Shown: in pieces, positions 13,200 through 28,327 of the stretch | Position numbering within the stretch: the first letter of the stretch is position 1 | How the letters are laid out: every line of letters begins with the position of its first letter | DNA from: Anaeromyxobacter dehalogenans 2CP-C | GTDB taxonomy: Bacteria > Myxococcota > Myxococcia > Myxococcales > Anaeromyxobacteraceae | DNA: 64,000 nucleotides | Direction: 5' to 3' | NCBI RefSeq assembly: GCF_000013385.1 | Contig: NC_007760.1 | Location: 372,001-436,000 of the forward strand | The notes under the pieces: generated by a model | Database searches by the model: none | Seen by the model: only the letters and a program-made list of their open reading frames with translations | What the model was told of the DNA's origin: nothing | Program-made: the position numbers and the translations under genes

Positions 13200-13688
13200 A
13201 TGCCGTTCCGCCCGAATGCACGAAGCCGCGCCTCGCGCGCCCTGGAGTGGACCTTCGCGGCCCTGCTGCTGGGGGCATCCGCCGCGATCCTCGTGGCCGC
13301 GGGCGTGAGCCGCGCGGACGCTCACTATCAGTGGACAAGGCCGGCGGGAGATCCCGCGCGCGGCGCGGTCACCCCGGCCGCCGTGTGGGAGCGGCTCCGG
13401 ACGGTGCTCGATCCCGAGCTCGGCATCGACGTGGTGGACCTGGGCCTCGTCTACGACGTCACGGTGCCGCGCGACGGCCGGGTGGCCGTGGTGATGACGC
13501 TCACCTCCGCGGGCTGCCCGTTCTCGAAGCAGATGATCGAGGACGTGCGCCGCGCGATCTTCCAGCACCCGGCGGTGCGCGAGGTGGCGCTCACCGTCAC
13601 CCGGGACCCGCCCTGGAGCTGGGACCGCGTGAGCCTGGAGGCCCGGAAGCGGATCGTGGAGGGATCGCACGCGGGGGCGCATCGATGA
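13200..13688 (+). CDS. Membrane-anchored DUF59 / MIP18-SufT-like iron-sulfur assembly protein
   Basis: A 162-residue protein. Residues 1-15 are Arg-rich, 16-36 form one TM helix, and about 58-150 are a DUF59 domain with the family signature DPELGIDVVDLGLVYDV starting at Asp71 and the conserved Cys106 in LTSAGCP. DUF59 proteins (SufT, PaaD, eukaryotic MIP18) help build or transfer Fe-S clusters, normally in the cytosol. Here the positive N-terminus predicts the domain lies on the outer face of the inner membrane, which is unusual. Its stop overlaps the start of the CcdA-like gene (ATGA), and the rdhA genes follow. I infer a role in Fe-S supply or insertion for the exported dehalogenases or ferredoxins. 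The start could be leaderless relative to the weak promoter at 13171. Confidence 0.75.
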   Translation: MPFRPNARSRASRALEWTFAALLLGASAAILVAAGVSRADAHYQWTRPAGDPARGAVTPAAVWERLRTVLDPELGIDVVDLGLVYDVTVPRDGRVAVVMTLTSAGCPFSKQMIEDVRRAIFQHPAVREVALTVTRDPPWSWDRVSLEARKRIVEGSHAGAHR

Positions 13689-14311
13689 CCCTGCTCGGCC
13701 CGCTCTCCAGCGGCTTCCTGCTCGGGCTGGGCACGGGTCCGCTCTGCTTCATCGGGTGCATCCCGCTGGCGCTGCCCTTCGCGCTGCCGGAGGCGGGGGC
13801 CGGGCCGCGGCGCGGCGCCTGGGGGTTCCTGGCGAAGTTCCTGGCCGGCCGCCTGGTCGCGTACTCGACGGTCGGCGTGCTCACCGGCCTCGCGTCGTCG
13901 ATGGCCGGGCCCGTGCAGCGCCGGGTGGTGACGGTGGCCTGGCTGGCGCTGAGCGTGGTGCTGATCGTGCACGGCCTCGGGCGCGGCCTGCCGCACCGCG
14001 GGGCGTGCGGCGCGGTCGCGCGCGTGGCGCGGTCGCGCGCGTTCCCCTTCCTGCTCGGGCTCGCCGCCGCGCTGTCGGTCTGCCCCCCGTTCCTGCTCGC
14101 GGTGGCCTACGCGATGGATCGCTCGGGGCAGGTGGTGGGCGGGCTCGCCTTCTTCCTCGCCTTCTTCGCCGCCACCACCCTCTACGTCGTGCCCGTCGCG
14201 CTGCTCGGCTACCTGCCGCGGCGCGACCTGTGGCAGCGCGTGGGGCGCGGCGCGTCGGTCATCGCGGGGATCGCGCTGCTGGTGCAGGGAGTGCGGGAGC
14301 TACTGGCGTAG
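13685..14311 (+). CDS. CcdA/DsbD-like (TauE/SafE-type) membrane protein
   Basis: A 208-residue protein with about six TM helices. Cys21 and Cys25 lie in the first helix (GPLCFIGCIPLALPF) and Cys133 in LSVCPPFLLA, the arrangement used by CcdA/DsbD membrane domains to carry electrons from cytoplasmic thioredoxin to the periplasm. Families annotated as sulfite exporter TauE/SafE look alike, so transport of a small anion is the alternative. The gene starts inside the stop of the DUF59 gene and sits 120 bases before rdhA1. With the TlpA-like protein at 27749 it could keep periplasmic cysteines reduced for Fe-S or corrinoid loading; this is inference. Confidence 0.7.
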   Translation: MTLLGPLSSGFLLGLGTGPLCFIGCIPLALPFALPEAGAGPRRGAWGFLAKFLAGRLVAYSTVGVLTGLASSMAGPVQRRVVTVAWLALSVVLIVHGLGRGLPHRGACGAVARVARSRAFPFLLGLAAALSVCPPFLLAVAYAMDRSGQVVGGLAFFLAFFAATTLYVVPVALLGYLPRRDLWQRVGRGASVIAGIALLVQGVRELLA

Positions 14312-14390: not shown

Positions 14391-14438
14391 ATGACCAACC
14401 ATCACCGGCACGAACCAACGAGGGGTCGCGCGCCATGA
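14391..14438 (+). CDS. Possible 15-codon leader peptide coupled to rdhA1
   Basis: An ATG at 14391 opens a 15-residue frame, MTNHHRHEPTRGRAP, whose TGA overlaps the rdhA1 ATG as ATGA. GGGAGG lies 12 bases before it, which is rather far. The peptide is His/Arg-rich with no family resemblance. It may be a translational-coupling leader or chance. Confidence 0.25.
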   Translation: MTNHHRHEPTRGRAP

Positions 14439-16357
14439 CCAAGACGGACCGTTACGTCCTGTGGGGCATCGGCGCCGCGTGGGTCCTCGACCTCGCGGTC
14501 TTCATCCTGTCCGACTACCACATCTACGCCTTCCTGCTGCTGTTCGTGGTCGCGGCGGTCGGGCTCGCCTGGTGGGGGCTGCGCTTCCCGGTCACCGCGA
14601 AGCTGCGGAGGAACGCGGCGCTCTCCGTGAGCGGCTTCTGGACGGTGGCCCTGGTGCTGCTGTTCGGGCCCTGGCCGGTTCCGGACAAGCCCGACTACAT
14701 CGTGGGCGAGGTCCACCGCTTCAGCGAGATGGAGCACGGCTTCGCCCGCGGCCTGACCGGAGTCACGGGTCCGAACATCGCGGCGGGCGGCCTCGTGTAC
14801 GGCGACCCGGCCGATCAGGGCCACATGATGTCGGAGTGGGGCTGGCCGCCGAACTTCATCAGCGGCAACCCCGTGTCGCGTGCGCTGTTCGGCGGCACCA
14901 TCCTCATGGAGCGTCTCCGCGGCGCGACCACCATCGGCGGCGAGCCAGCGAACCCGCTCCGGTACAGCTGGTCGAACTTCGAGGGCGAGAAGCGGGACAA
15001 GAAGCTCGGCTGGAACAGCGGCGACTACCTGTTCGGCGAGGTCGCCAAGGTCATGGGCACGCAGAAGGCGAGCTACACGCCTCGCGAGAACGCCCTCATG
15101 ATCAAGTCGCTCGCGGCCTGGCTCGGCTCCCCGAAGATCGCCATCGCCGCGGTGGACCCGCGCTGGTTCTACTCGCACGACCTCAGCACCTGGGGCACGC
15201 CGCTGCCGCTGAAGGACGCGAAGGACCTGAAGTACGTCATCCAGCTCTTCACCGACCAGGACTGGACCCGCGTGCACAACGACTCGGGCACCTCCTGGTG
15301 GTCGGTGTCGAACAGCGGCCAGGCCTACTCCACCAGCGCCTGGATCGGCATCCGCATGGCGCAGGTGCTCCGGGACATGGGGTACACCGCCCGCGTCGGG
15401 TTCGGCGGCATGAACTACGAGAACATCGAGACCACCGTCTCGGTGTACAGCGGCATCGGCGAGTACGGCCGCCTCTCCGACGCGGTGGTTCCCACCGCCG
15501 GCGGTCTCCGCTTCAAGTCCGCCACCATCTTCACCGACTTTCCGATGGACGTCGGCGAGCCGAACGTCGGCTGGGGCATCACCCGCATGTGCGCGAACTG
15601 CGATCGCTGCGCCCGAGCGTGCCCGGTGAACGCCGTGCCGATGGGCGAGCCGACGGTCGAGAACGGCGTGAACATGTGGCAGGTGGACAAGGACAAGTGC
15701 ACCCGGTTCCGGACCGGGAACCTGAACGGCAACATGTGCGGCGCCTGCCTGGCGGTGTGCCCGTACAACAAGCCCGACACACCGTTCCACCGCGTCGGGA
15801 ACTACATCATCCGGCACAGCCCGATCGCCACCTACCTGTTCGGCAACATCCACGGCGTCGGCCTCGAGGACTGGCTCGACTTCGAGTACAGCTCCGAGGC
15901 CGGCCCCTACAACGTGAGCCGTCCGGCCCGCTGGATCCAGGAGGACCCCGGCTGGAAGGCCAAGTTCCCCTACCAGGTCGGCCAGTACATCTACACCGAG
16001 CGTGACCGCTCCAAGAACGAGGAGTGGGCGTCCGGGGTGGACCCGAAGATGGGGAAGGTCGGGCTCAGCTACAAGGGCACGACCTGGGGGAAGATCCCCG
16101 ATCGCCTGGTGGACGCCAACGGCCGCAACCGCAACGTCCACTGGGACTACGAGGCGGGCGAGCTCCCGCCCAACCTGCCGCTGCCCGGGAAGCTGCTGAC
16201 GCCGGAGGAGGCGACCCGCCTGCTGCTGGAGGGCAAGGCGTTCTCCGGCGCCTCCTACACGCCGGACGCCGAGGTCTTCCCGCCGCGCGATCCCAAGTAC
16301 GAGAAGCAGAAGCTGTCCTACGAGCAGGCCGCCCGCATGTGGGCCGAGGAGAAGTGA
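14435..16357 (+). CDS. rdhA: Reductive dehalogenase catalytic subunit 1, N-terminal TM type
   Basis: A 640-residue corrinoid/Fe-S enzyme of the RdhA family, which removes halide from organohalides as terminal reductase of respiration. Three TM helices (about 7-25, 30-49, 61-78) replace the usual RRxFxK Tat signal. The basic loop RFPVTAKLRR between helices 2 and 3 should be cytoplasmic, placing the catalytic domain outside. The core contains GIGEYGRLSDAVVPTAGG and FTDFPM, equivalent to the cobamide-binding region of the QueG/RdhA fold. Two ferredoxin motifs follow: C386-x2-C389-x2-C392-x3-C396-P, then C422 with C435-x2-C438-x3-C442-P. The start is taken at ATG 14435 with AGGGG nine bases upstream; an in-frame extension upstream adds only low-complexity residues. 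A two-TM anchor gene follows two bases after the stop. The substrate is unproven; chlorinated phenols are suggested by the XylR-type regulator. Confidence 0.93.
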   Translation: MTKTDRYVLWGIGAAWVLDLAVFILSDYHIYAFLLLFVVAAVGLAWWGLRFPVTAKLRRNAALSVSGFWTVALVLLFGPWPVPDKPDYIVGEVHRFSEMEHGFARGLTGVTGPNIAAGGLVYGDPADQGHMMSEWGWPPNFISGNPVSRALFGGTILMERLRGATTIGGEPANPLRYSWSNFEGEKRDKKLGWNSGDYLFGEVAKVMGTQKASYTPRENALMIKSLAAWLGSPKIAIAAVDPRWFYSHDLSTWGTPLPLKDAKDLKYVIQLFTDQDWTRVHNDSGTSWWSVSNSGQAYSTSAWIGIRMAQVLRDMGYTARVGFGGMNYENIETTVSVYSGIGEYGRLSDAVVPTAGGLRFKSATIFTDFPMDVGEPNVGWGITRMCANCDRCARACPVNAVPMGEPTVENGVNMWQVDKDKCTRFRTGNLNGNMCGACLAVCPYNKPDTPFHRVGNYIIRHSPIATYLFGNIHGVGLEDWLDFEYSSEAGPYNVSRPARWIQEDPGWKAKFPYQVGQYIYTERDRSKNEEWASGVDPKMGKVGLSYKGTTWGKIPDRLVDANGRNRNVHWDYEAGELPPNLPLPGKLLTPEEATRLLLEGKAFSGASYTPDAEVFPPRDPKYEKQKLSYEQAARMWAEEK

Positions 16358-16358
16358 C

Positions 16359-16610
16359 ATGGACCGGCTCAAGCAGCTCAAGATCCAGATCTCGCTGCAG
16401 TGGTACGAGCTGATCCTCATCGGCGTCACCGCGGGCCTGCTCGCCTTCGGCGTATGGGCGCTGATCGACACGCTCCTCATCTCGTCGCCGGTCGCGGCCT
16501 GGCGCTTCCTCGCGCTGTTCGTCATCTGGTCGCTGCCGGGCATCGCGGTCCTCGCGTTCGTCCGGCCGCGCACCGCCGCCGAGGCGGCGCAGGAGCAGCC
16601 CACCCCGTAA
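16359..16610 (+). CDS. Small two-TM membrane protein, RdhB-like anchor 1
   Basis: An 83-residue protein with two TM helices (about 16-38 and 46-68), located directly after rdhA1 with a one-base gap, the position RdhB takes in classical rdhAB pairs. RdhB proteins are about 90 residues with three helices and dock RdhA to the outer face of the membrane. This one has no clear sequence motif in common, so it is RdhB-like by size, topology and context only. Because RdhA1 already has TM helices, it may be a partner subunit rather than the sole anchor. Confidence 0.6.
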   Translation: MDRLKQLKIQISLQWYELILIGVTAGLLAFGVWALIDTLLISSPVAAWRFLALFVIWSLPGIAVLAFVRPRTAAEAAQEQPTP

Positions 16611-16677: not shown

Positions 16678-18153
16678 GTGCGCTGGAAGGCTCGAGAGCT
16701 GGGATGCGTCGCGCTCGCCGCGGCGGGGGCGGTGGCCTGGGCAGCGATGGCCTCGGCGGCCCTGGTCGAGCGGGAGTGGCGCGCCACCTGGATCTCCGTC
16801 GGCGCGGCGCTCGCCTGCGCGGCGGTCGCGACGGGGCTGGTGGTGGCGCGCCGCCGCGGCGCGCTGGACGGGGCGGTGCCGCGCCGCGTGCTGCGCGCCG
16901 CGCTCGCGTCGGCGGTGGCGCTGGCGCTCGCGCTGGTGCTCCCGTCCGATCGCAGCTTCCCGGACAAGCGGGTGGGCGCCGCCACGCCGACGACCGAATA
17001 CGACGCGTCCACGCAGCCCGGCAACGACGTCCTCGGCAAGGTCGAGCGGACGAGGGGCGGCGGGAGCGAGGACGAGCTCACCTTCACGGTGTACGACGTG
17101 TGCTCCGGCAAGGTCGCCCACCGCGCCGCGCGCGACGGCGCGCCGGCGCCGGTCGCGGTGGAGGTCACCGAGCCGGCCGTGCTGGCCGCGCAGATCAAGG
17201 ACGAGGCCCGCGCGCTCGGCGCGCAGGTGACCGGGATCACCGCGCTCCACCCGCAGTTCGTGTTCCGCAAGGACAACGACGGCCGGCCCGTCGAGCTCCG
17301 CCACCGCTTCGCCATCGTCATCGGCACCGGCCTCGACTACCGGCTCGCGAGCCCGTCCGCGCCGCTGCCCTGGCGCGACTACTACAGCGCCATCCCGGAG
17401 GAGGTGGCGGCGGTCCTCTCCGGTCGCAGCGACGACCCCGCCGTTCCCATCCCTGCGGAGGTGATCCAGGAGTACCGCGACACGCTCGAGTTCTACGCGG
17501 AGGGCGGCCGGATCGCGGTGCACCTGGCGAAGGCCATCCGCAGCCTGGGCTACCCGGCGCGCGCGCACTTCGGCCGGTGGTCCGAGGTGCAGGTGGTCCC
17601 GCTCGCGATCGAAGCCGGGCTGGGGGAGGTGGGCAAGAACGGGATGCTCATCAACGACCGCTTCGGGCCGCGCGGCAGCTTCGCGGTGGTGACGACCGAC
17701 ATCCCGCTCGCCGTGGACCGGCAGCGCGATCTCGGGGTGCAGGAGTTCTGCCGCGTCTGCAACAAGTGCGCGGACGCCTGTCCGGTGAACGCGGTCCCGC
17801 GCGGCGACGCGGGCGCGCCGGCGGGCGGCGTCTCGCGCTGGCAGGTGGACGGCCCGAAGTGCTGGACGTACCTCAAGCTGAACCCGAAGTGCATGGCGTG
17901 CACCGGGGCCTGCCCCTTCAACAAGAAGGACCTGCTGGCGCACCGCTGGGCGCAGGCGCTCATCGCGCGCAAGTCGGTCGTCGCCAACCACCTCCTGGTG
18001 TGGCTCGACGACCTGCTCGGCTACGGCAGGGCCGCGCTCCGGCTGCGCGACGAGGCGCGCAGGGCGCTGGGCGAGCCCGCCGCGGCGCCGCCCCAGGCGC
18101 CGGATCGGCCGCAGGCGGGCGGCGGCGCCTCGGCGCCGGAGGCGCGGTCGTGA
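16678..18153 (+). CDS. rdhA: Reductive dehalogenase catalytic subunit 2, N-terminal TM type
   Basis: A 491-residue second RdhA homolog. It begins with GTG, with GGAG ahead. Like RdhA1 it has three TM helices (about 8-30, 38-57, 74-89) with a basic loop RRRGALDGAVPRRVLR between helices 2 and 3, so the catalytic domain should be periplasmic. IEAGLGEVGKNGMLINDRFG is the corrinoid-domain signature shared with epoxyqueuosine reductase. Fe-S ligands are C358, C361, C364, C368-P and C395, C405, C408, C412-P. It is shorter than RdhA1 and lacks its roughly 150-residue C-terminal extension. The two differ too much to be a recent duplication. It could act on another substrate or on the same substrate at a different position. 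Confidence 0.9.
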   Translation: MRWKARELGCVALAAAGAVAWAAMASAALVEREWRATWISVGAALACAAVATGLVVARRRGALDGAVPRRVLRAALASAVALALALVLPSDRSFPDKRVGAATPTTEYDASTQPGNDVLGKVERTRGGGSEDELTFTVYDVCSGKVAHRAARDGAPAPVAVEVTEPAVLAAQIKDEARALGAQVTGITALHPQFVFRKDNDGRPVELRHRFAIVIGTGLDYRLASPSAPLPWRDYYSAIPEEVAAVLSGRSDDPAVPIPAEVIQEYRDTLEFYAEGGRIAVHLAKAIRSLGYPARAHFGRWSEVQVVPLAIEAGLGEVGKNGMLINDRFGPRGSFAVVTTDIPLAVDRQRDLGVQEFCRVCNKCADACPVNAVPRGDAGAPAGGVSRWQVDGPKCWTYLKLNPKCMACTGACPFNKKDLLAHRWAQALIARKSVVANHLLVWLDDLLGYGRAALRLRDEARRALGEPAAAPPQAPDRPQAGGGASAPEARS

Positions 18154-18317
18154 AGGCGGGCCCCTCCGCCGGAGCGGTGAGGGCGTGGCTCGCGCTGGGC
18201 GCGGCGGGCCTGCTCGTCGGTGCGCTGTTCAACGTGGCGTTCCAGGCCGCGCCCTGGAGCCCCGGGGGCCTGTCCGGCGGCCTGATCGCGGCCGCGCTGC
18301 TGTGGGTGCTGTCATGA
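18150..18317 (+). CDS. Small two-TM membrane protein, RdhB-like anchor 2
   Basis: A 55-residue protein starting with GTG inside the stop of rdhA2 (GTGA). It has two hydrophobic segments (AWLALGAAGLLVGALFNVAF and GGLSGGLIAAALLWVL). It occupies the same place after rdhA2 as the 83-residue protein does after rdhA1, suggesting a matching partner subunit. No conserved motif is recognised. Confidence 0.55.
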   Translation: MKAGPSAGAVRAWLALGAAGLLVGALFNVAFQAAPWSPGGLSGGLIAAALLWVLS

Positions 18318-18478
18318 TCGAGCTCGTCACCACGCTGCTGCTCGCCGTGGGCGTCTACGCGCTGCTGCGGCGCCCCGACGGCCACGGCTGCGGCGGCGAC
18401 TGCGGCCGGTGCGGGGGCGAGCCAGGGTGCGCGCCGCTCGTCCAGCTCGAGCGACCCCGCGGGGGGGAACGTCGATGA
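18314..18478 (+). CDS. 54-residue TM protein with Cys-rich tail
   Basis: ATG 18314 overlaps the preceding stop (ATGA), and its own stop overlaps the next start. One TM helix (about 4-18) is followed by C26-x3-C30-x2-C33-x5-C39. This resembles the small FeoB-associated Cys-rich membrane proteins, whose tails are thought to bind metal. In this operon it may hold an Fe-S cluster or deliver iron. The tail follows RR, so by charge it is cytoplasmic, unlike the RdhA domains. Confidence 0.6.
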   Translation: MIELVTTLLLAVGVYALLRRPDGHGCGGDCGRCGGEPGCAPLVQLERPRGGERR

Positions 18479-19929
18479 CCTGGGCCGGCCCGGCTGCGCT
18501 GGCGGTGTTCGTGGGCGGGGTGGTCGCCTCGCTGCGCGGCTGGATCCCGCAGCGCGTGATCACGCTGCAGGCGCTCCTGCTCGCCATCGCCGGGATCGCG
18601 CTCGGGCTCACCGCGCTCGCCGGCCAGCCCATCCCCTGGCCACAGCTCCTCGCGTCGGCGAACGTGCACCCGGTCACCAGCGTCATCGCGGGCTTCCTGC
18701 TCGCGGGTGCGCTGCACGCCGCCGGCGCGTTCGACGCCGCGGCGCGGCTGCTCGCGCGCCTCACGCGCACGCGGCTCGGAGCGCCCTTCGTGATCCTGCT
18801 GGTGGTGAACCTGCCCACCATCCTCGCCATGCCCTGCGGCCGCATCCTGGTGTCGCCGCTCATGCCGCTCGCGCTCATGCTGGGGTGGGCGCTCGCCCGC
18901 GAGCGCCGCGAGCCGGTGCTGGTGGCGGTGACGGTGTTCGGCCTGGTCGTGAACGCGGCGGCCTCGTGCGGCCCCTCGGTGATCGGCGGGATCGGGATGC
19001 TGGGCGAGGGCATGGGGCGCTATCCGCCCGGCTCCTTCTCCAACCCTGCGCAGATCGCGATCCTGGTGATCACCGTCGCCACCATGGCGCTGATCCGGTG
19101 GGGCTTCGGCGGGACGCTCCGGATGCGCGCCACGCCCCCGGCGCCCGTCGAGCGGCCGGTGCCGGAGCACGGGTACCTCGCGCTGGCGATGTTCGTGGCG
19201 GTGCTGCTCCTCGTCGTGCTGGTGCGCCCGCCGGTCCCGCTGCAGGTGACCCTGACGCTCGGGACGGCGTGCGTGATGCTGGTGGCCCGGCTCGGCCTCG
19301 ACGACCTCCTGGGCGGCGTGATGCTCCACCCGCTCTCCGCCATGCTGGCCGGGTTCCTGGTGGCGGGCGCGCTCTCGGTCGCGGGGGCGTTCGACGCGCT
19401 GCTCGTGCTGCTGGTGTGGGCGGCGGAGCACACCTGGCTCGGCTACGTCGGGGTGAGCGTCGTGCTGGCCTACGTGCCGGTGATGCTGGCGATGCCGTGC
19501 GGCCGGATCGTCTCGCTCGCGCTCATCCCCGGCGTGCTCCTGTTCGGCGTCCGCCTGGCGGGCGTGACCGGCCTCGAGCGCGCCACGCCGACGCTGCTCT
19601 CCGCCTTCATCCTGGCCGGCGCGGCCTCCTGCGGCCCCTCCGCCATCGGCGGCATCGGCAGCATCGGCGAGGGGCGGCTGCGCATCCGCGACGCCTGGTC
19701 CGGCCAGCCGCAGGCGCTCGGGATCTTCCTGGGCGTCCCGGTCACCGCCCTGCTCGTCTCGCGGCTGCCGCTCGCCTCGGTGGCGCTCGACGTCCGCTAC
19801 TTCCCGGTGGCGCTCGCGCTCGGCGCGCTCGCGGGCGCGGTGGTGAACCTCGTGTACGGCTACCGCGTGCACCACCTCGGCGGCCTGCTGGGCGGCCTCG
19901 TCACCGGCGCGCTCCTGGTGATCCTGTGA
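18475..19929 (+). CDS. Duplicated-domain multi-pass transporter of unknown substrate
   Basis: A 484-residue very hydrophobic protein with at least ten TM helices. The two halves are homologous. FLLAGALHAAGAFDAAARLL matches FLVAGALSVAGAFDALLVLL; LAMPCGRI occurs near residues 118 and 338; AASCGPSVIGGIG and AASCGPSAIGGIG occur near 162 and 384, an offset of about 220 residues. Such inverted or direct repeats with re-entrant loops are typical of ion-transporter-superfamily carriers, but I cannot place it in a named family. Its position inside the rdh operon suggests halide export, uptake of the organohalide or its acid, or ion coupling. The paired Cys and Pro-Cys-Gly motifs are unusual for a carrier and might bind metal. 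Confidence 0.6.
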   Translation: MTWAGPAALAVFVGGVVASLRGWIPQRVITLQALLLAIAGIALGLTALAGQPIPWPQLLASANVHPVTSVIAGFLLAGALHAAGAFDAAARLLARLTRTRLGAPFVILLVVNLPTILAMPCGRILVSPLMPLALMLGWALARERREPVLVAVTVFGLVVNAAASCGPSVIGGIGMLGEGMGRYPPGSFSNPAQIAILVITVATMALIRWGFGGTLRMRATPPAPVERPVPEHGYLALAMFVAVLLLVVLVRPPVPLQVTLTLGTACVMLVARLGLDDLLGGVMLHPLSAMLAGFLVAGALSVAGAFDALLVLLVWAAEHTWLGYVGVSVVLAYVPVMLAMPCGRIVSLALIPGVLLFGVRLAGVTGLERATPTLLSAFILAGAASCGPSAIGGIGSIGEGRLRIRDAWSGQPQALGIFLGVPVTALLVSRLPLASVALDVRYFPVALALGALAGAVVNLVYGYRVHHLGGLLGGLVTGALLVIL

Positions 19930-20417
19930 GGCGCGCCCTCGTCGCCGTGAACGCGCTCGCGGTCGGCCTCACGCTCGCGTACCTGGGCTGGCTGCTCGGC
20001 GACGCCCTTCGCGCCGGCCAGCCGTGGGCGGTCACCTGCTACGACTGCAAGGCGTGCACGGCGCGGTGCGTGCTCGGGCTCGACCCGCAGGGCTTCGTGT
20101 CGGCGGCGCTGGCCGGGAGCGGCGACGTGTACATGTACGCGACGAACGTGCGGCTCCGCGCGCGCCACGCGCTGGAGATCGACCCGGGGATGCTGGTGAC
20201 GGTCGGGGACCGGCACCCGACCGCGCGAGAGGCGGCGGCCGAACTGGGGCCGGACGCGGAGGTGGTCACCTTCAGGATGCGGGCGCGCGACGCGGCCCGC
20301 GCGTGCTTCCGCTGCGGCGCCTGCGAGAAGGGCTGCGGGCTGCGGCTCCCCCTGCTCCGCGTCATCACGCAGCTCCGCGGCGACGCGAGCAACGAATGGG
20401 CGTCCCATGCTCCGTAG
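19926..20417 (+). CDS. Membrane-anchored 2x[4Fe-4S] protein, HdrC-like
   Basis: A 163-residue protein with a GTG start overlapping the transporter stop. One N-terminal TM helix (about 5-28) precedes two cysteine clusters: C38-x2-C41-x2-C44-x3-C48 and C127-x2-C130-x2-C133-x3-C137. The spacing matches 2x[4Fe-4S] proteins of the HdrC/GlpC type, though Pro does not follow the fourth Cys. Few charges precede the helix (two Arg), consistent with clusters outside. It is probably one of three relay proteins moving electrons from menaquinol to the dehalogenases. Confidence 0.7.
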   Translation: MRRALVAVNALAVGLTLAYLGWLLGDALRAGQPWAVTCYDCKACTARCVLGLDPQGFVSAALAGSGDVYMYATNVRLRARHALEIDPGMLVTVGDRHPTAREAAAELGPDAEVVTFRMRARDAARACFRCGACEKGCGLRLPLLRVITQLRGDASNEWASHAP

Positions 20418-21036
20418 CCCCGTCTTCCTGTCCGCCCTGACGTTCCTGGCCGTCGCGCTCGGCGTGCGCGCCGCGCAGGCGCCGTGGAGGGAGCAGTTCC
20501 CCGGCTCCTATCCGCGGGTGGTGGCGCCGGCGGAGGCGAGGTTCGAGTTCCTGCCGGACGAGCTCCGGATCCACCTGTCCGACCAGACGCGCAGCGGCCG
20601 GATCATCGTGTTCGCGCACGTGGAGGGCGGCAGCCTGCTCGGCCTGCTGAAGCCGATCGTGGACGGGACCGTCACGGTGCGCCGAGGCGACCTCGCGGAC
20701 TACGCGCTCGCGATCCACGGCGGGGAGATCGGGGAGCACCGGCTCCTCAAGGCCATGGACCGGTACGTCGAGCGGGAGGACATGCTCGAGCGGATCCTCG
20801 AGGCGCGCGCGAAGGGCCTGCGCTTCGGGGTCCAGCGCTGCCTCTACCCGATCTGCAACCGCTGCCTGGACGGCTGCAAGAGCGTGATGCGCCGCGACTA
20901 CCCCATCTCCATGCGCGTGGGGGAGCGCGGGAACGTCGAGCCGGGGTTCGCGAAGGGCAGCTGTCCGCGGTGCGGGAAGTGCTTCGTGTGGTGTCCGTCT
21001 GGCGTGCTCCGGGACAGCGGGTCCCTCACCAACTAG
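20407..21036 (+). CDS. Exported 2x[4Fe-4S]-type protein
   Basis: A 209-residue protein overlapping the previous gene by 11 bases. Residues 1-25 (MLRSPVFLSALTFLAVALGV, then RAAQA) form a Sec-type signal peptide. Cysteines: C145-x4-C150-x2-C153-x3-C157 and C186-x2-C189-x2-C192-x3-C196-P. The first cluster's four-residue gap departs from the ferredoxin rule. The middle part (ARFEFLPDELRIHLSD, HGGEIGEHRLLKAMDRY) matches nothing I know. An Fe-S protein exported by Sec would have to receive its clusters outside, which fits an exported assembly factor at 13200. It is a probable periplasmic electron shuttle to RdhA. Confidence 0.65.
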   Translation: MLRSPVFLSALTFLAVALGVRAAQAPWREQFPGSYPRVVAPAEARFEFLPDELRIHLSDQTRSGRIIVFAHVEGGSLLGLLKPIVDGTVTVRRGDLADYALAIHGGEIGEHRLLKAMDRYVEREDMLERILEARAKGLRFGVQRCLYPICNRCLDGCKSVMRRDYPISMRVGERGNVEPGFAKGSCPRCGKCFVWCPSGVLRDSGSLTN

Positions 21037-21044
21037 GAGACGCG

Positions 21045-21410
21045 GTGCTCGAGGCGATGGAGATCGCGGTCGTGATGCTCCCGGTGGTGCTGGTCGCGGG
21101 GATGCTCGTCCGGCTGGTGGCGCGCGGTCAGGCGCAGGTGCTGCTCTGCATGGAGTGCGAGCTGTGCATGGGCGCGTGCCCGCTGTGCGCCAAGCGCGGC
21201 GAGGCGTTCCCCGGGCCGAAGGGGATCCTCGCCGCGGCGAAGACGGGCAAGGTGGAGGCCGCGATCGCCGCGGGCGCGCTCGACTGCACCTCCTGCGGCG
21301 CCTGCACGCGCGTGTGCCCGCGCGGCCTCGCCCCGCAGGTCGAGGTGGAGCGGTGGCGCGCCGCGGCCGAGCGGGAGGGGACGCGCGGCGCGGCACGGGG
21401 ACCCGCGTGA
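21045..21410 (+). CDS. Membrane-anchored 2x[4Fe-4S] ferredoxin-like protein
   Basis: A 121-residue protein. GTG 21045 is chosen since AGGAG lies five bases upstream; ATG 21057 would be too far. One TM helix (about 7-25) is followed by C35-x2-C38-x2-C41-x3-C45-P and C81-x2-C84-x2-C87-x3-C91-P, classical 4Fe-4S signatures, so two clusters are expected. It is the third consecutive small Fe-S protein and its stop overlaps the TonB receptor start. The RLVAR following the helix suggests the clusters could face the cytoplasm, so orientation is uncertain. If so, it might take electrons from a cytoplasmic donor rather than deliver them outside. Confidence 0.7.
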   Translation: MLEAMEIAVVMLPVVLVAGMLVRLVARGQAQVLLCMECELCMGACPLCAKRGEAFPGPKGILAAAKTGKVEAAIAAGALDCTSCGACTRVCPRGLAPQVEVERWRAAAEREGTRGAARGPA

Positions 21411-23356
21411 GCGCCCGTCCTCCATCGGCCGGACGGACGGCCATCGCGCTCGCGTGCGCCGCCGGTCCGGCGCTGGCCCCCGCGCTCGCGTCGGCGCAAG
21501 AGCCGGCGCTCCCCGCCGTGGTGCTGGACGAGCAGGTCATCCGGCTGCCTCGGGCCGAGGCGGAGGGTCGGCCGCCGGCGACGATCACCGTCGTGGACCG
21601 CTCGACCTTCGAGGGCGAGGCCAAGGACGTCGGCCAGCTGGTCTCCGCGGCCCCCGGCGTCGTCGTGGAGGAGCACGGCGGGATGGGCCAGCTCACCACC
21701 GTCTCGATCCGCGGCTCGACCCCGGACGGCGTCAAGGTGCTGCTGGACGGCCTGCCCCTCAACACGGCCTTCGGCGGCGGCGTGGACCTCTCCACCATCC
21801 CGCGCGCGTGGGTGGACGCGGTGGAGGTGGTGCGCGGACCCGAGGGCGCGCGCTACGGCGCGGGCGCGCTCGGCGGCGCGCTGAACGTGGTCACGCGCCG
21901 ACCGAGCGCGGGGAGCTGGAGCCTCGAGACGGGGGGCGGCTCCTACGACACCGCCCGCGTCGCGGCCGAGCTCGCCGCCGCGGTGGGGCCCGGCTCGCTG
22001 ATGGTGGCCGCGAGCGCCGACACGACCGGCGGCCGGTTCCCGTTCCGGCTCGATCCAGGGCTCCCCGGCGGTCCGACCGTGGCCGCGATGCGCGAGAACG
22101 CCGAGGCCCGGCGCGCCGGCCTGCTGGCGAAGCTGGCGCGGCCGCTGTCGCGCGGCCGGCTCGACGCGCTCGTCGAGGTGTCCGGCGGGCACCGGGGCCT
22201 GCCGGGCTTCGCCGCCTCGCCCACGCCGTGGGCGTGGCAGGACGACGCGCGGCTGCTCGCGATGGGGCGCGTGGCGCGCTTCGGCGCGATCGGCCCGGCC
22301 ACGCTCGCGACCCGCGGGCACCTGCGGCTCGACCGCCTCGACGCCCGCGTCACCGGCCCGCGAGACCCGCCCGTCCGGCAGCGCGGCAGCGCGGCCGGGC
22401 TCGCGCTCGACGCGACGGGGTCCCACGCGCACGGCGTGCTCAGCGCCTCGCTGGAGGCGTCGGGAGAGCTCATCGACGCCGACGGGCTGGGCCGGCGGCG
22501 CGAGCTGCTCGGCGTCGCGGCGGCGGTGTCGGAGGATCTCGCGCTCGCCGGCGGTCGCTTCCGGCTCGCCCCCGCGGTCCGCGCGGAGCGGGCGGGGCGG
22601 TTCGGCGGGGTGTCCGGGACCCTCGGGCTGGGCGCGCGCCTCGGGCCCGCGCTGCGCGCGCGCGCGAGCGTCGGCCGCACCTTCCGCCCGCCCGGGGTGG
22701 CGGAGCTGCACCTGCAGCAGGGGCTCCTGGTCCCGAACCCGGACCTCCGGCCGGAGACGGCGGTGGCCGTCGACGCCGGCCTCGTCGCCGACGGCCGCGC
22801 CGGCCTCGTCGCCGTCACCGGCCACCTCACCCGCTACGACGATCTCGTCGTCTACGAGCCGAGCGACGCGTTCGGCAGGCTGAAGCCGTTCAACTCGGGG
22901 CGCGCGATGGCGAGCGGCCTCGAGGTGGAGGGCGCGACGGCGCCGGTCGGCGGCCCGCTGCGCGCGAGCGCCAGGGGGAGCTACACCTTCCTCGCCACCG
23001 AGCTGCTGCGGGGCGCGCCCGCCGAGGTGGGCCACTGGATCCCGTACCGGCCGCGCCACCGCGCCGTCCTGCGCGCCGCGCTCGCGCCGGGGCCGGCGAC
23101 GGCGCACGTCGAGCTTCACCACCTGGGCCGCCGCTACCGCGACCGGCGCGGCGTGAACCCGATCCCGCCCTCGACCGTCTGGAACGCCGGGCTGAGCGCG
23201 CGCGTCGCGCGCCACCCCGACGTGCGCATCCAGCTCGAGGTGCTCAACCTCGCCGACGACCGGACGCTCACGGACGGCCTCGGCGATCCCCTCCCCCCGC
23301 GCACCGTGATGATCACGCTGCGCGCCGGGTCCACGCCCCAGGAGAACGCGCCATGA
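21407..23356 (+). CDS. TonB-dependent outer-membrane receptor, candidate corrinoid or organohalide importer
   Basis: A 649-residue receptor starting with GTG inside the preceding stop (GTGA). A signal peptide ends near ALASAQE (residue 32). The plug domain spans about 55-170 with TTVSIRGSTPDGVKVLLDGLP and ARYGAGALGGALNVVTRRP, signatures of BtuB/FepA-type plugs. The rest is a beta-barrel ending in LRAGSTPQENAP, without the usual terminal aromatic. RdhA enzymes need a cobamide, so vitamin B12 or another corrinoid is the leading candidate, with the organohalide itself or iron as alternatives. The next gene encodes a surface propeller lipoprotein, overlapping by four bases. Confidence 0.8.
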   Translation: MSARPPSAGRTAIALACAAGPALAPALASAQEPALPAVVLDEQVIRLPRAEAEGRPPATITVVDRSTFEGEAKDVGQLVSAAPGVVVEEHGGMGQLTTVSIRGSTPDGVKVLLDGLPLNTAFGGGVDLSTIPRAWVDAVEVVRGPEGARYGAGALGGALNVVTRRPSAGSWSLETGGGSYDTARVAAELAAAVGPGSLMVAASADTTGGRFPFRLDPGLPGGPTVAAMRENAEARRAGLLAKLARPLSRGRLDALVEVSGGHRGLPGFAASPTPWAWQDDARLLAMGRVARFGAIGPATLATRGHLRLDRLDARVTGPRDPPVRQRGSAAGLALDATGSHAHGVLSASLEASGELIDADGLGRRRELLGVAAAVSEDLALAGGRFRLAPAVRAERAGRFGGVSGTLGLGARLGPALRARASVGRTFRPPGVAELHLQQGLLVPNPDLRPETAVAVDAGLVADGRAGLVAVTGHLTRYDDLVVYEPSDAFGRLKPFNSGRAMASGLEVEGATAPVGGPLRASARGSYTFLATELLRGAPAEVGHWIPYRPRHRAVLRAALAPGPATAHVELHHLGRRYRDRRGVNPIPPSTVWNAGLSARVARHPDVRIQLEVLNLADDRTLTDGLGDPLPPRTVMITLRAGSTPQENAP

Positions 23357-24843
23357 GAGCAGCCACCATCCTCGGAACCCTCGCCGTCGCGGCGCTCGCA
23401 GCCTGCGACTCCGACGCGACCTGCCCCGAGGGGCAGGTGGAGTGCGCCGGCCGGTGCGTCGCGCTCGCGACCGACCCGCTGAACTGCGGCGCGTGCGGCG
23501 TGGCCTGCGGGCCCGGCGCCACCTGCGGCGCGGGCGCGTGCGGGTGCGGCCCCGGGACGGTCCTCTGCGGCGCGACCTGCGCGCAGCTGGAGAGCGATCC
23601 CGACCACTGCGGCGCCTGCGGGAGCGCGTGCCGGGACGCGCAGGTGTGCAGCTCGGCCGGCGGCGCGGCCGCCTGCGCCGACGCGTGCGGCGAAGGGCAG
23701 GTCGCCTGCGGCCGCGCCTGCGTCGAGCTCGCGTTCGACCGCTACCACTGCGGCGCGTGCGGGACCGTGTGCCAGCCGGGGGAGGCGTGCGACGCAGGGA
23801 CGTGCCGCTCCCTGCAGGTCGCGTGCTTCGCCACCGACGACGTGCGGCCGATCGCGCCGGACCTCGCCGCCGCGGGCTCGCCGCGGCCGGCGGGCGACGG
23901 CCCGATCGCGCTCGCGGCCCTGGGCGGCGACGTATGGGCCGCGGCGGCGCTCTCGGGGAGCGTGATCCGGCTGCCGCTCGACCTCTCCGCGCCGCCCGTC
24001 GAGCACGCGCTGCACGGCTCGGACCTGGAGGGCATCGCCGCCGCGTCCGACCGCTTGCTGGTCTCGAACTCGGGCGGCGGCTCGGTGGCAGTGGTCGATC
24101 CCGTCACCGGGCGCGTGCTCGACGACGTGCTCATCCCCGGGCTCCCGGGCGCCAACCCGCGCGGCATCGCGGTGCTGGACGGCAAGGCCTACGTGGCGCT
24201 GTACGGCCGGGACGAGGCGAGCGGCGGGCAGGGGGTGGCGGTGCTCGATCTGTCGCGCCTCGCCGGGTGCGCCGCCGCGCCCTGCGCGACGGTGGAGCGC
24301 GTGGTGGACCTGCGCGGCGCGGCCGACGCCGGCGGCCTGCCGTTCCCGGGCAAGGCCGTCGCCGCCGGCGGGCGCGCGTGGATCACGATCGCGAACCTGG
24401 CGCGCGACACCGACCCGGCGAGCTGGACCTACGGCTACTACGTGAAGCCGGCCGGCCCGGGACGGCTCGCGGCGCTGGACGGCACGTCCGACGCCGTGCA
24501 GCTGGTCTCGCTCGGCGACGGGTGCCGGAACCCGGGCGCGCTGGCGGTGGACGGCGCCACGCTCTGGGTCTCCTGCGGCGCGGCGGGCGCGGCCGGCCTC
24601 GTGCCGGTGGACGTGTCCGATCCCCGCGCGCCGGTGGTCGGACCCGTGCTCGCGACCGCCTTCGACGCTCCCGGTGCCGTGGCCATCTGCCGCGGAGCGG
24701 GGTTCGTGGCCGACCAGTATACAGGTCGGGTGCAGCGCTTCGACCCGGTGACCAGGACGAGCGAGGAGACGGTGACCGCCTGCCCGGTGGGTGCGCAGGG
24801 CTGGGCCTGGGCCGCGGATCTCCTGTGCGCTCCCGCGCGCTGA
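23353..24843 (+). CDS. Cys-rich lipoprotein with C-terminal beta-propeller
   Basis: A 496-residue lipoprotein; lipobox L-A-A-C gives Cys18. Residues about 22-155 hold four copies of the myxobacterial Cys-rich repeat (CAGRCVALATDPLNCGACG, CGATCAQLESDPDHCGACG, CGRACVELAFDRYHCGACG and a shorter one), probably disulfide-bonded outside the cell. Residues about 170-496 form a YncE/SMP-30-like beta-propeller (ALGGDVWAAAALSGSVIRLP, GIAAASDRLLVSNSGGGSVA). Paired with the TonB receptor, it resembles the BtuB-BtuG arrangement in Bacteroides, where a propeller lipoprotein hands cobalamin to the receptor. That comparison is my inference from architecture, not from sequence identity. Confidence 0.7.
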   Translation: MRAATILGTLAVAALAACDSDATCPEGQVECAGRCVALATDPLNCGACGVACGPGATCGAGACGCGPGTVLCGATCAQLESDPDHCGACGSACRDAQVCSSAGGAAACADACGEGQVACGRACVELAFDRYHCGACGTVCQPGEACDAGTCRSLQVACFATDDVRPIAPDLAAAGSPRPAGDGPIALAALGGDVWAAAALSGSVIRLPLDLSAPPVEHALHGSDLEGIAAASDRLLVSNSGGGSVAVVDPVTGRVLDDVLIPGLPGANPRGIAVLDGKAYVALYGRDEASGGQGVAVLDLSRLAGCAAAPCATVERVVDLRGAADAGGLPFPGKAVAAGGRAWITIANLARDTDPASWTYGYYVKPAGPGRLAALDGTSDAVQLVSLGDGCRNPGALAVDGATLWVSCGAAGAAGLVPVDVSDPRAPVVGPVLATAFDAPGAVAICRGAGFVADQYTGRVQRFDPVTRTSEETVTACPVGAQGWAWAADLLCAPAR

Positions 24844-24910: not shown

Positions 24911-26569
24911 ATGAAGCTCCACGACATCCACCTGCTCGACCTGTTCGATGTCGGCACCGATCAGGGCTGGCTCAGCATGCACCAGCAGCGCATGGTGCTG
25001 CACAGCGCGGCGGCGGTCAGCATCATGCGTGCGCAGCTCGTCCGCAGCCTCGGGCACGACGCGGCGCGGGCCATCGTGTTCCGCTGGGGCTTCGCCCAGG
25101 GCTACTTCGACGCGATGATGACCTCGGACCACCTCGCCAGCCTGGAGCCGGTGGATCGGTTCGTGTTCGGCTGCACGCTCCACACCATGGAGGGCATGGT
25201 GCGGGTGGCGCCCAAGGTCATCGAGGCGAACGGCCCCGGGAAGCTGCACATGGAGGCCAACTGGTGGCACTGCGCCGAGGCCGACGACCACGCGCGCGTG
25301 CTCCCGGCCGGCCTCACCAGCTCCTGCTGGGCCACCCTGGGCTACGCCTCGGGCTTCGCCACCTACGTCATCGGCGCGCTCATCCTGTTCAAGGAGCTGT
25401 CCTGCCGCTGCTCCGGCGCGCCGTGCTGCTCGGTGATGGGCAACGACATGGAGGGCTGGGGGGAGCGGGCTGCGGAGATCGAGGGCCGCTACACGCTCGC
25501 CGGCGAGACGTCCTTCACGCAGCAGTGGAAGGAGATCCACCGGGAGTGCGAGCGGGCCAGGGCCGCCCGCAGCGCGGCGGCGGCGGCGCACCCGGCGCCC
25601 ACCGCGACGCTCACCTCGGTGAGCGGCCCGGACCGCACCACCGGGCCGCTGAACTTCGTCGTCTGCAGCCAGTCCATGACCGAGCTGCTGGCGCTGGCGG
25701 AGCGCGTGGCGCCGCTCGAGATCAACGTGCTCATCGAGGGCGAGAGCGGGACCGGCAAGGAGTTCCTGGCGCGCTACATCCACGAGAAGAGCCTGCGCGG
25801 CGACGCGCCCATGGTGGCCATCAACTGCGCCGCGCTCACCGAGGGCCTGCTCGAGTCGGAGCTGTTCGGGCACGTGCGCGGCGCGTTCACCGGCGCGGTC
25901 CGCGACAAGCCCGGCCTGTTCGAGCACGCCGGGAGCGGCACCATCCTCCTCGACGAGATCGGCGAGATGCCGCTCTGCCTCCAGGCGAAGCTGCTGCGCG
26001 CGCTCGAGACGCGCGAGTTCCGGCGGGTGGGCGGCGAGAAGGTGCTGCGGCTCGGCGCGCGGGTGGTCGCCTCGACCAACCGCGACCTCCGCCGCCAGGT
26101 GCAGGCGGGCGCGTTCCGGGAGGACCTGTTCTACCGCCTGGGCGGCTTCGTGCTCACCATCCCGCCGCTCCGCGAGCGGCGTGAGGAGATCCCGGCGCTG
26201 GCGCACTACTTCCTGCACTCGACCGCGCGGCGCTGGAACAAGGGGGTCCAGACCATCAGCCCGGGCGCGATGCGGCGCCTGATGAGCTATCCGTGGCCGG
26301 GAAACGTCCGCGAGCTCCAGCACGCCATCGAGCGCGCGACGGTGGTGGCCTCGCAGTCGGTGCTGACCGTCAAGGACCTCAACCCGGAGATCGCGGCGAC
26401 CGGGGCGCCCGCCGAGTGCGACCTCGACGTCGAGGCCAACGAGCGGCAGCTCATCGAGGAGGCGCTCCGGCGGTTCCACGGCAACCGCAAGGAGGCCGCG
26501 GCGGCGCTGCGCATCAGCCCGGTCACCCTCTGGCGGCGCGTGCGGAAGTACGGCCTGTCGATCACGTGA
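24911..26569 (+). CDS. XylR/DmpR-type sigma54-dependent aromatic-sensing activator
   Basis: A 552-residue regulator in the classical order: XylR-N (about 10-115), V4R (about 135-195) with C139 and a Cys cluster C165/C167/C172/C173 that may bind zinc, a linker, then AAA+ (about 250-480) with Walker A GESGTGKE from Gly277, the sigma54-contacting loop GAFTGA at 324-329 and Walker B ILLDEIGEM, and a Fis-type HTH at the end (GNRKEAAAALRISPVTLWRRV). DmpR, XylR and HbpR of this group sense phenols, toluenes or hydroxybiphenyl. Here a chlorophenol inducer for the rdh operon is the natural hypothesis. It lies 67 bases after the last operon gene, with GGAAGG ahead of the ATG. It overlaps the convergent flavoprotein gene by eight bases. 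Confidence 0.92.
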   Translation: MKLHDIHLLDLFDVGTDQGWLSMHQQRMVLHSAAAVSIMRAQLVRSLGHDAARAIVFRWGFAQGYFDAMMTSDHLASLEPVDRFVFGCTLHTMEGMVRVAPKVIEANGPGKLHMEANWWHCAEADDHARVLPAGLTSSCWATLGYASGFATYVIGALILFKELSCRCSGAPCCSVMGNDMEGWGERAAEIEGRYTLAGETSFTQQWKEIHRECERARAARSAAAAAHPAPTATLTSVSGPDRTTGPLNFVVCSQSMTELLALAERVAPLEINVLIEGESGTGKEFLARYIHEKSLRGDAPMVAINCAALTEGLLESELFGHVRGAFTGAVRDKPGLFEHAGSGTILLDEIGEMPLCLQAKLLRALETREFRRVGGEKVLRLGARVVASTNRDLRRQVQAGAFREDLFYRLGGFVLTIPPLRERREEIPALAHYFLHSTARRWNKGVQTISPGAMRRLMSYPWPGNVRELQHAIERATVVASQSVLTVKDLNPEIAATGAPAECDLDVEANERQLIEEALRRFHGNRKEAAAALRISPVTLWRRVRKYGLSIT

Positions 26570-27719: not shown

Positions 27720-27735
27720 CGGCACGCGGGTTGCT
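27720..27735 (+). promoter_or_regulatory. Candidate sigma54 promoter for the tlpA-like gene
   Basis: CGGCACGCGGGTTGCT differs from TGGCACG-N4-TTGCW only at the first base and keeps GG-N10-GC exactly. The start would be near 27746, three bases before the ATG, so the message may be leaderless. A CTTC-N5-GAAC dyad at 27682-27694 sits 25 bases upstream. Confidence 0.5.
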
Positions 27736-27748
27736 CCGGGAGACGCCC

Positions 27749-28327
27749 ATGACACCTCCAACTCCTGCGGCGCGCCGCACCTCGGGTCGCCCGCGCGCGG
27801 GCGCGCGTCGCGCGCCGCTCCTCGTGGCCGCGGTGGTGCTCGGCGTGGCGACGCTGGTGATCGCCGACCGGACGCTGGGCGGCTCCGGGGCGCCGCGCAC
27901 GGACGCACCAGCGCCGCCGTTGCGGGTCGGAGCCGTGAGCGGCGGCGGAGAGATCGATCTCGCGCGGCTACGCGGGCGCGCCGTGGTGGTGAACTTCTGG
28001 GCGCCCTGGTGCGCGCCGTGCCAGGCCGAGCTGCCGGATCTCGCGGCGGTCAAGCAGGACCTGGCGGGACGCTGCGTCGAGCTCGTCGGGATCGCGGGCG
28101 ATGGCACGCGGACCGAGGTGGCGCAGGTCGCCGCGCGGCAGCCGTATCCGATCGGCTTCGACGAGCGCGGGGACGCGATGCGGGCCTGGCGCGTGGAGTC
28201 GGTGCCCACGACCTACCTCGTGGACGCGGACGGGAAGGTTCGTACGGTGATCCCCGGCGCCGTCGGCCGCGAGGAGCTGCTCGAGGCGCTTCGCCCGATC
28301 ATCCCGGCGACGTGTCCGGCGGGGTGA
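27749..28327 (+). CDS. TlpA-like membrane-anchored periplasmic thioredoxin
   Basis: A 192-residue protein with an Arg-rich N-terminus, one TM helix (about 24-41) and a thioredoxin-fold domain with active site WCAPC (in VVVNFWAPWCAPCQAELP) and the cis-Pro region SVPTTYLVD. TlpA/ResA proteins reduce disulfides outside the cytoplasm, for example in cytochrome c maturation. No cytochrome genes are nearby. The candidate sigma54 promoter just upstream and the CcdA-like gene in the rdh operon suggest it passes electrons from that protein to cysteines of exported Fe-S proteins; this is inference. GGGAG precedes the ATG by seven bases. Confidence 0.85.
   Translation: MTPPTPAARRTSGRPRAGARRAPLLVAAVVLGVATLVIADRTLGGSGAPRTDAPAPPLRVGAVSGGGEIDLARLRGRAVVVNFWAPWCAPCQAELPDLAAVKQDLAGRCVELVGIAGDGTRTEVAQVAARQPYPIGFDERGDAMRAWRVESVPTTYLVDADGKVRTVIPGAVGREELLEALRPIIPATCPAG

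Follow-up and report, generated by a model that had tools for sequence, protein, structure and literature searches.

The rdh island

We analysed a window of 64,000 nucleotides from Anaeromyxobacter dehalogenans 2CP-C (NC_007760.1, positions 372,001 to 436,000); all coordinates below count from its first letter. The window holds an island with two genes for reductive dehalogenase homologs, rdhA1 and rdhA2, whose genes run in the order listed here. This order is conserved along the whole island in a second Anaeromyxobacter genome, G031.

13200..13688, + strand: TM-anchored DUF59 (SufT/MIP18-type) protein, 162 aa (Pfam PF01883; conserved coding TM segment, invariant motif residues)
13685..14311, + strand: CcdA/DsbD_2-like six-TM protein, 208 aa (PF13386, E=5.1e-21), in ATGA overlap with the DUF59 gene
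14435..16357, + strand: RdhA1, a reductive dehalogenase domain carrying two [4Fe-4S] motifs, preceded by three TM helices and followed by a C-terminal extension of ~155 aa (TIGR02486, E=1.4e-38, below cut-off; NpRdhA homology)
16359..16610, + strand: 83-aa two-TM protein, RdhB-like by size, position and hydropathy (no Pfam match; conserved in G031)
16678..18153, + strand: RdhA2, three TM helices and reductive dehalogenase domain (TIGR02486, E=1e-38, below cut-off)
18150..18478, + strand: two overlapping small membrane ORFs (conserved in G031)
18475..19929, + strand: polytopic membrane protein with ~10 TM helices (weak CitMHS match; conserved in G031)
19929..21410, + strand: three ferredoxin-type proteins, 19929-20408, 20407-21036 and 21054-21410 (Fer4 families; 87% identical in G031)
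21407..23356, + strand: TonB-dependent outer-membrane receptor (PF00593/PF07715; conserved in G031)
24911..26569, + strand: regulator with XylR_N and sigma54-activator domains, aromatic-responsive type (PF06505, E=1.7e-21; PF00158, E=1.8e-63)
27720..27735, + strand: candidate sigma54 promoter 5' of the TlpA gene, CGGCACGCGGGTTGCT (the highest-scoring + strand match of the window, with conservation in G031)
27749..28327, + strand: TM-anchored TlpA/ResA-like thioredoxin with WCAPC (AhpC-TSA, E=1.6e-19; ResA family NF002854, E=1e-23, below cut-off)

A membrane-anchored DUF59 protein

The first protein of the operon matches PF01883 over residues 60-129 (E=1.8e-19; 70.2 bits against a gathering score of 23.5), within a domain that spans 60-150, and has structural relatives in 3lno, 2cu6 and 1uwd; its own AlphaFold model is of low confidence (pLDDT 54.7) and was set aside. 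It resembles SufT and the MIP18 family, auxiliary factors of cytosolic Fe-S assembly, in its complete domain and its DPE...MTLT..GCP...DPPW motif. Every canonical motif residue is kept, including D71-P72-E73 and Cys106, the latter invariant across 39 aligned DUF59 domains. It differs from these relatives in a single N-terminal TM helix, at residues ~18-36, that would place the domain outside, and in its membership of an rdh operon instead of a suf operon. Against the SUF-associated SufT equivalogs TIGR02945 and TIGR03406, which describe soluble, suf-linked proteins, it scores 83-86 bits, under the cut-offs of 143 and 203. The same genome encodes a soluble SufT in an ordinary full SUF operon, which suggests that the TM-anchored protein is a specialised extra copy.

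The TM helix is a genuine part of the protein. Its hydropathy is 2.17 here and 2.44 in G031, against at most 1.44, and nearly always at most 1.03, for the other Myxococcota DUF59 N-termini checked. Between the two genomes, 24 of codons 8-44 are identical, 7 differ synonymously and 6 non-synonymously, and codon positions 1, 2 and 3 show 4, 3 and 11 differences; the excess of identical and synonymous codons and the third-position bias show that the segment is truly translated. A misplaced start codon as the source of the helix is ruled out by this conservation across it. The open frame continues for only four codons 5' of the ATG (a 166-aa frame). A TM segment as a common feature of DUF59 proteins was likewise rejected, since the other DUF59 proteins examined in the Myxococcota set and in 38 RdhA genomes have none.

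The N-terminus is Arg-rich, with a conserved RSRASR and no RR, and the positive-inside count gives an N-in/C-out orientation. The preliminary description of this locus had proposed a DUF59 domain behind one TM helix and an Arg-rich N-terminus, a conserved Cys106 and a coupling to a CcdA/DsbD-like protein with membrane cysteines, and all of this was borne out. Its further claim that the domain lies in the periplasm is supported by the N-in/C-out charge bias of the helix, which predicts export of the domain itself.

What the exported domain would do is a separate matter. DUF59 biochemistry is unsettled, and binding of Fe-S clusters by SufT has so far escaped demonstration (PMC8593673), so the domain might have been co-opted for a role unrelated to such clusters, as a structural subunit or in metal binding or corrinoid handling for a dehalogenase complex. 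The faster divergence of the DUF59 protein (74% identity to the G031 copy, against mostly 81-93% for most neighbours) would suit such a change of role. We nevertheless consider it distinctly improbable, given that the full set of motif residues has been retained with its cysteine and that many of the neighbouring genes encode Fe-S proteins.

Identity and predicted topology of the dehalogenases

RdhA1 and RdhA2 score 133.5 and 134 bits with TIGR02486, below the subfamily cut-off of 160.35, and match in fold and in both Fe-S motifs. The closest solved structure to the RdhA1 core is NpRdhA (4ras; E=5.6e-40), which the RdhA1 model also matches in Foldseek. The two share the catalytic domain; the three TM helices and the C-terminal extension belong to RdhA1, and the catabolic enzyme NpRdhA has no such bundle. 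In the alignment RdhA1 keeps all cluster cysteines plus one Tyr and one Lys, which line up with the catalytic pair of NpRdhA; with these residues RdhA1 looks like an active enzyme. The RdhAs that it matches best in Desulfobacterota have neither TM helices nor clear Tat motifs, and a first genome contig search with RdhA1 returned no relatives. The C-terminal extension (15890-16357, ~155 aa) is mostly of low confidence in the model, and none of the RdhAs gathered for this analysis shows a relative of it.

The TM anchoring of both RdhAs, also part of the preliminary description, was confirmed: each carries three TM helices at its N-terminus, has no Tat motif there and contains both FeS1 and FeS2, the features of the hybrid TM-RdhAs (Atashgahi 2019, PMC6797604). 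In the passages available from it, the 2008 genome paper assigns TM helices and non-Tat signals to Adeh_0328, 0329 and 0331 and leaves the gene upstream of Adeh_0328 unmentioned (PMC2330069).

The island proteins differ from their hybrid relatives in the distribution of charges around the membrane. We calculated a charge index by counting Lys and Arg in the N-terminus plus loop 2 and subtracting the count for loop 1 plus the first 15 residues that follow TM3. The index is +5 for RdhA1 of the window, about +4 for RdhA1 of G031 when counted by eye, and +3 for RdhA2 in each of the two species. The other three-TM RdhAs tested, drawn from several phyla, range from -2 to -8, so that the charge bias of the island RdhAs is opposite to that of 19/19 relatives, which is new here. 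On this basis the catalytic domains of RdhA1 and RdhA2 are predicted to lie outside, in the periplasm, and those of the 19 relatives inside. The island proteins are further set apart from the hybrid TM-RdhAs by the TM-DUF59 and CcdA-like genes that accompany them.

These predicted N-in/C-out topologies, like that of the DUF59 protein, come from positive-inside counts, which are a rule and not proof, and in published TMHMM predictions some hybrid RdhAs come out in one orientation and some in the other (PMC6797604). The topology could thus have been misread, with the DUF59 and RdhA domains facing the cytoplasm and the TM helix merely tethering an ordinary SufT beside RdhA. That three proteins of one island, the DUF59 protein, RdhA1 and RdhA2, all come out N-in/C-out, in both species where counted, makes this very unlikely in our view.

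A different route to periplasmic dehalogenases would be dual insertion by Sec and Tat, as in the actinobacterial Rieske proteins (PMC5449189): TM1 and TM2 of RdhA1, and perhaps of RdhA2, would be inserted by Sec, and the domain, loaded with cofactors in the cytoplasm, would be moved with TM3 by Tat. Clusters would then be built in the cytoplasm, and the exported DUF59 and CcdA-like proteins would only protect, repair or serve another protein. RdhA1 shares with the Rieske proteins a predicted N-in orientation, three TM helices, a cofactor domain predicted outside and an RR (RR58-59) before a weak TM3. The RR lies ~8 residues after TM2 and is conserved in both species, and TM3 is weaker in hydrophobicity than its counterparts in 17 references (-0.32/+0.10, where these range from -1.34 to -5.37; the scale is approximate). 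Both the RR and the weak TM3 count among the reported hallmarks of this class, and Sco2149 requires ~8 residues between TM2 and RR as well as a weak TM3 (PMC5449189). However, RdhA1 departs from the Rieske proteins in its short loop and in a poor Tat consensus (LRRNAA/MRRNAA), and Tat is a candidate route for it. RdhA2 lacks a conserved RR right before TM3, its TM3 is more hydrophobic in G031, and dual insertion offers no reason for an exported DUF59 protein in the operon. We regard dual insertion as the main rival to our reading and a strong one, though somewhat unlikely.

The CcdA-like protein and TlpA

The stop codon of the DUF59 gene overlaps the start of the CcdA-like gene (ATGA). The encoded protein reaches 75.9 bits with PF13386 (cut-off 24.9) and has the six TM helices and the cysteines in TM1 (Cys21/Cys25) and TM4 (Cys133) of CcdA/DsbD_2 thiol electron carriers, the cysteines being conserved in G031. 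In contrast to those carriers, its gene sits with rdhA and not with cytochrome c maturation. Further DsbD/CcdA genes lie elsewhere in the same genome, and the island protein may therefore be dedicated to the island. A TlpA under sigma54 control had also been proposed; the gene and a conserved best-scoring + strand site are where this requires, and as a motif match the site makes sigma54 a candidate for the control of TlpA.

Distribution

The preliminary description had anticipated that TM-DUF59 and TM-RdhA genes would occur together in other genomes, and this expectation failed. Of the 195 Myxococcota genomes, the same two, and no others, carry a strong match to RdhA1 and a close TM-DUF59. Outside the genus, DUF59 is absent near all 38 RdhA loci, with 26 of the 38 genomes lacking any DUF59 hit, and it was absent near 30 Desulfobacterota loci and 17 loci in the phylum of genome G231, both sets with short flanks. 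We reject a general co-occurrence on the basis of 85 RdhA loci from other lineages (38 + 47, with a few loci shared between sets). The reference three-TM RdhAs among these comparisons are predicted to face the cytoplasm and so are not the right comparison class for co-occurrence.

DUF59 searches were extended to another 349, 297 and 199 genomes and yielded no TM-DUF59 ortholog, one of them returning no match at all and so being weak evidence on its own; in about 1,080 genomes searched there was no further TM-DUF59, and no plasmid record covered 80% of the query. Since the two genomes share one syntenic island, we count them as one event. The module is known only from this island in two related species, with no replicate in an independent lineage.

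Interpretation

In the general view, extracytoplasmic Fe-S proteins receive their cofactors in the cytoplasm and are then exported in folded form by Tat. Two RdhAs with predicted periplasmic domains and no N-terminal Tat signal would face a cofactor-insertion problem, which assembly outside, as the preliminary description had it, would solve; its interpretation is supported in part. The best reading of the extra DUF59 copy, which carries a TM anchor and opens the rdh operon in coupling with a CcdA-like gene, is that of a factor specific to the dehalogenases and facing the periplasm. We propose, with a probability of roughly 45%, that RdhA1 and RdhA2 are membrane-anchored, periplasm-facing reductive dehalogenases served by a dedicated SufT-type accessory factor whose own TM helix would tether its domain to the inner membrane on the outer side. 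Cys106 would serve the dehalogenases by handling Fe-S clusters or iron, in transfer, holding or repair, and the CcdA-like protein, via TlpA or directly, would carry electrons across the membrane so that ligand cysteines stay reduced.

The sequence itself establishes the domains, a TM helix that is real and conserved, the gene order, the two-species synteny and a charge bias that predicts periplasmic catalytic domains. From these we infer the export of the DUF59 domain, its action on the RdhAs and the thiol route, together with either cluster insertion outside or upkeep and repair only. The island suggests, short of proof, a possible insertion or repair of metal clusters beyond the cytoplasm. 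A stronger version, in which the tethered DUF59 protein and CcdA/TlpA thiols assemble [4Fe-4S] clusters in Sec-exported dehalogenases, or insert them, outside the cytoplasm, where these also take their corrinoid, seems doubtful to us. It counts against our proposal that we identified no periplasmic sulfur source, iron source or scaffold in the window.

The TM-DUF59 module is built from known families, and its arrangement at an rdh island is new. How outward-facing hybrid RdhAs are made has been listed as an open question (Atashgahi 2019, PMC6797604). An exported SufT-like factor and a thiol-reducing partner in one operon offer a concrete candidate for the making of such non-Tat dehalogenases. 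The host is a cultivable soil Anaeromyxobacter described as a chlororespirer, and chlororespiration by the strain is reported in passages of its genome paper (PMC2330069).

Regulation and other genes of the island

The sigma54 activator of XylR_N type with which the rdh island ends suggests aromatic-responsive control; a search for a sigma70-type promoter upstream of the operon found none. The TonB-dependent receptor is a possible importer of corrinoid, a substrate that we infer. Directly 3' of it lies a gene for a Cys-rich STIG1-like putative lipoprotein (LAAC; 23356-24843). The second ferredoxin-type protein (20407-21036; 2x[4Fe-4S]) carries at its N-terminus a Sec-like hydrophobic segment that contains no RR, and its topology is ambiguous. 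The second of the small membrane ORFs (18314-18478) encodes 54 aa, with one TM helix, a Cys-rich tail and no Pfam hit; it resembles FeoB-associated Cys-rich membrane proteins. Divergent from the rdh operon is a gene for a methyl-accepting chemotaxis protein (12780-10699, - strand), preceded by ~45 bases by a sigma54-like site, TGGCACGCGGGGTGCT (12840-12825, - strand).
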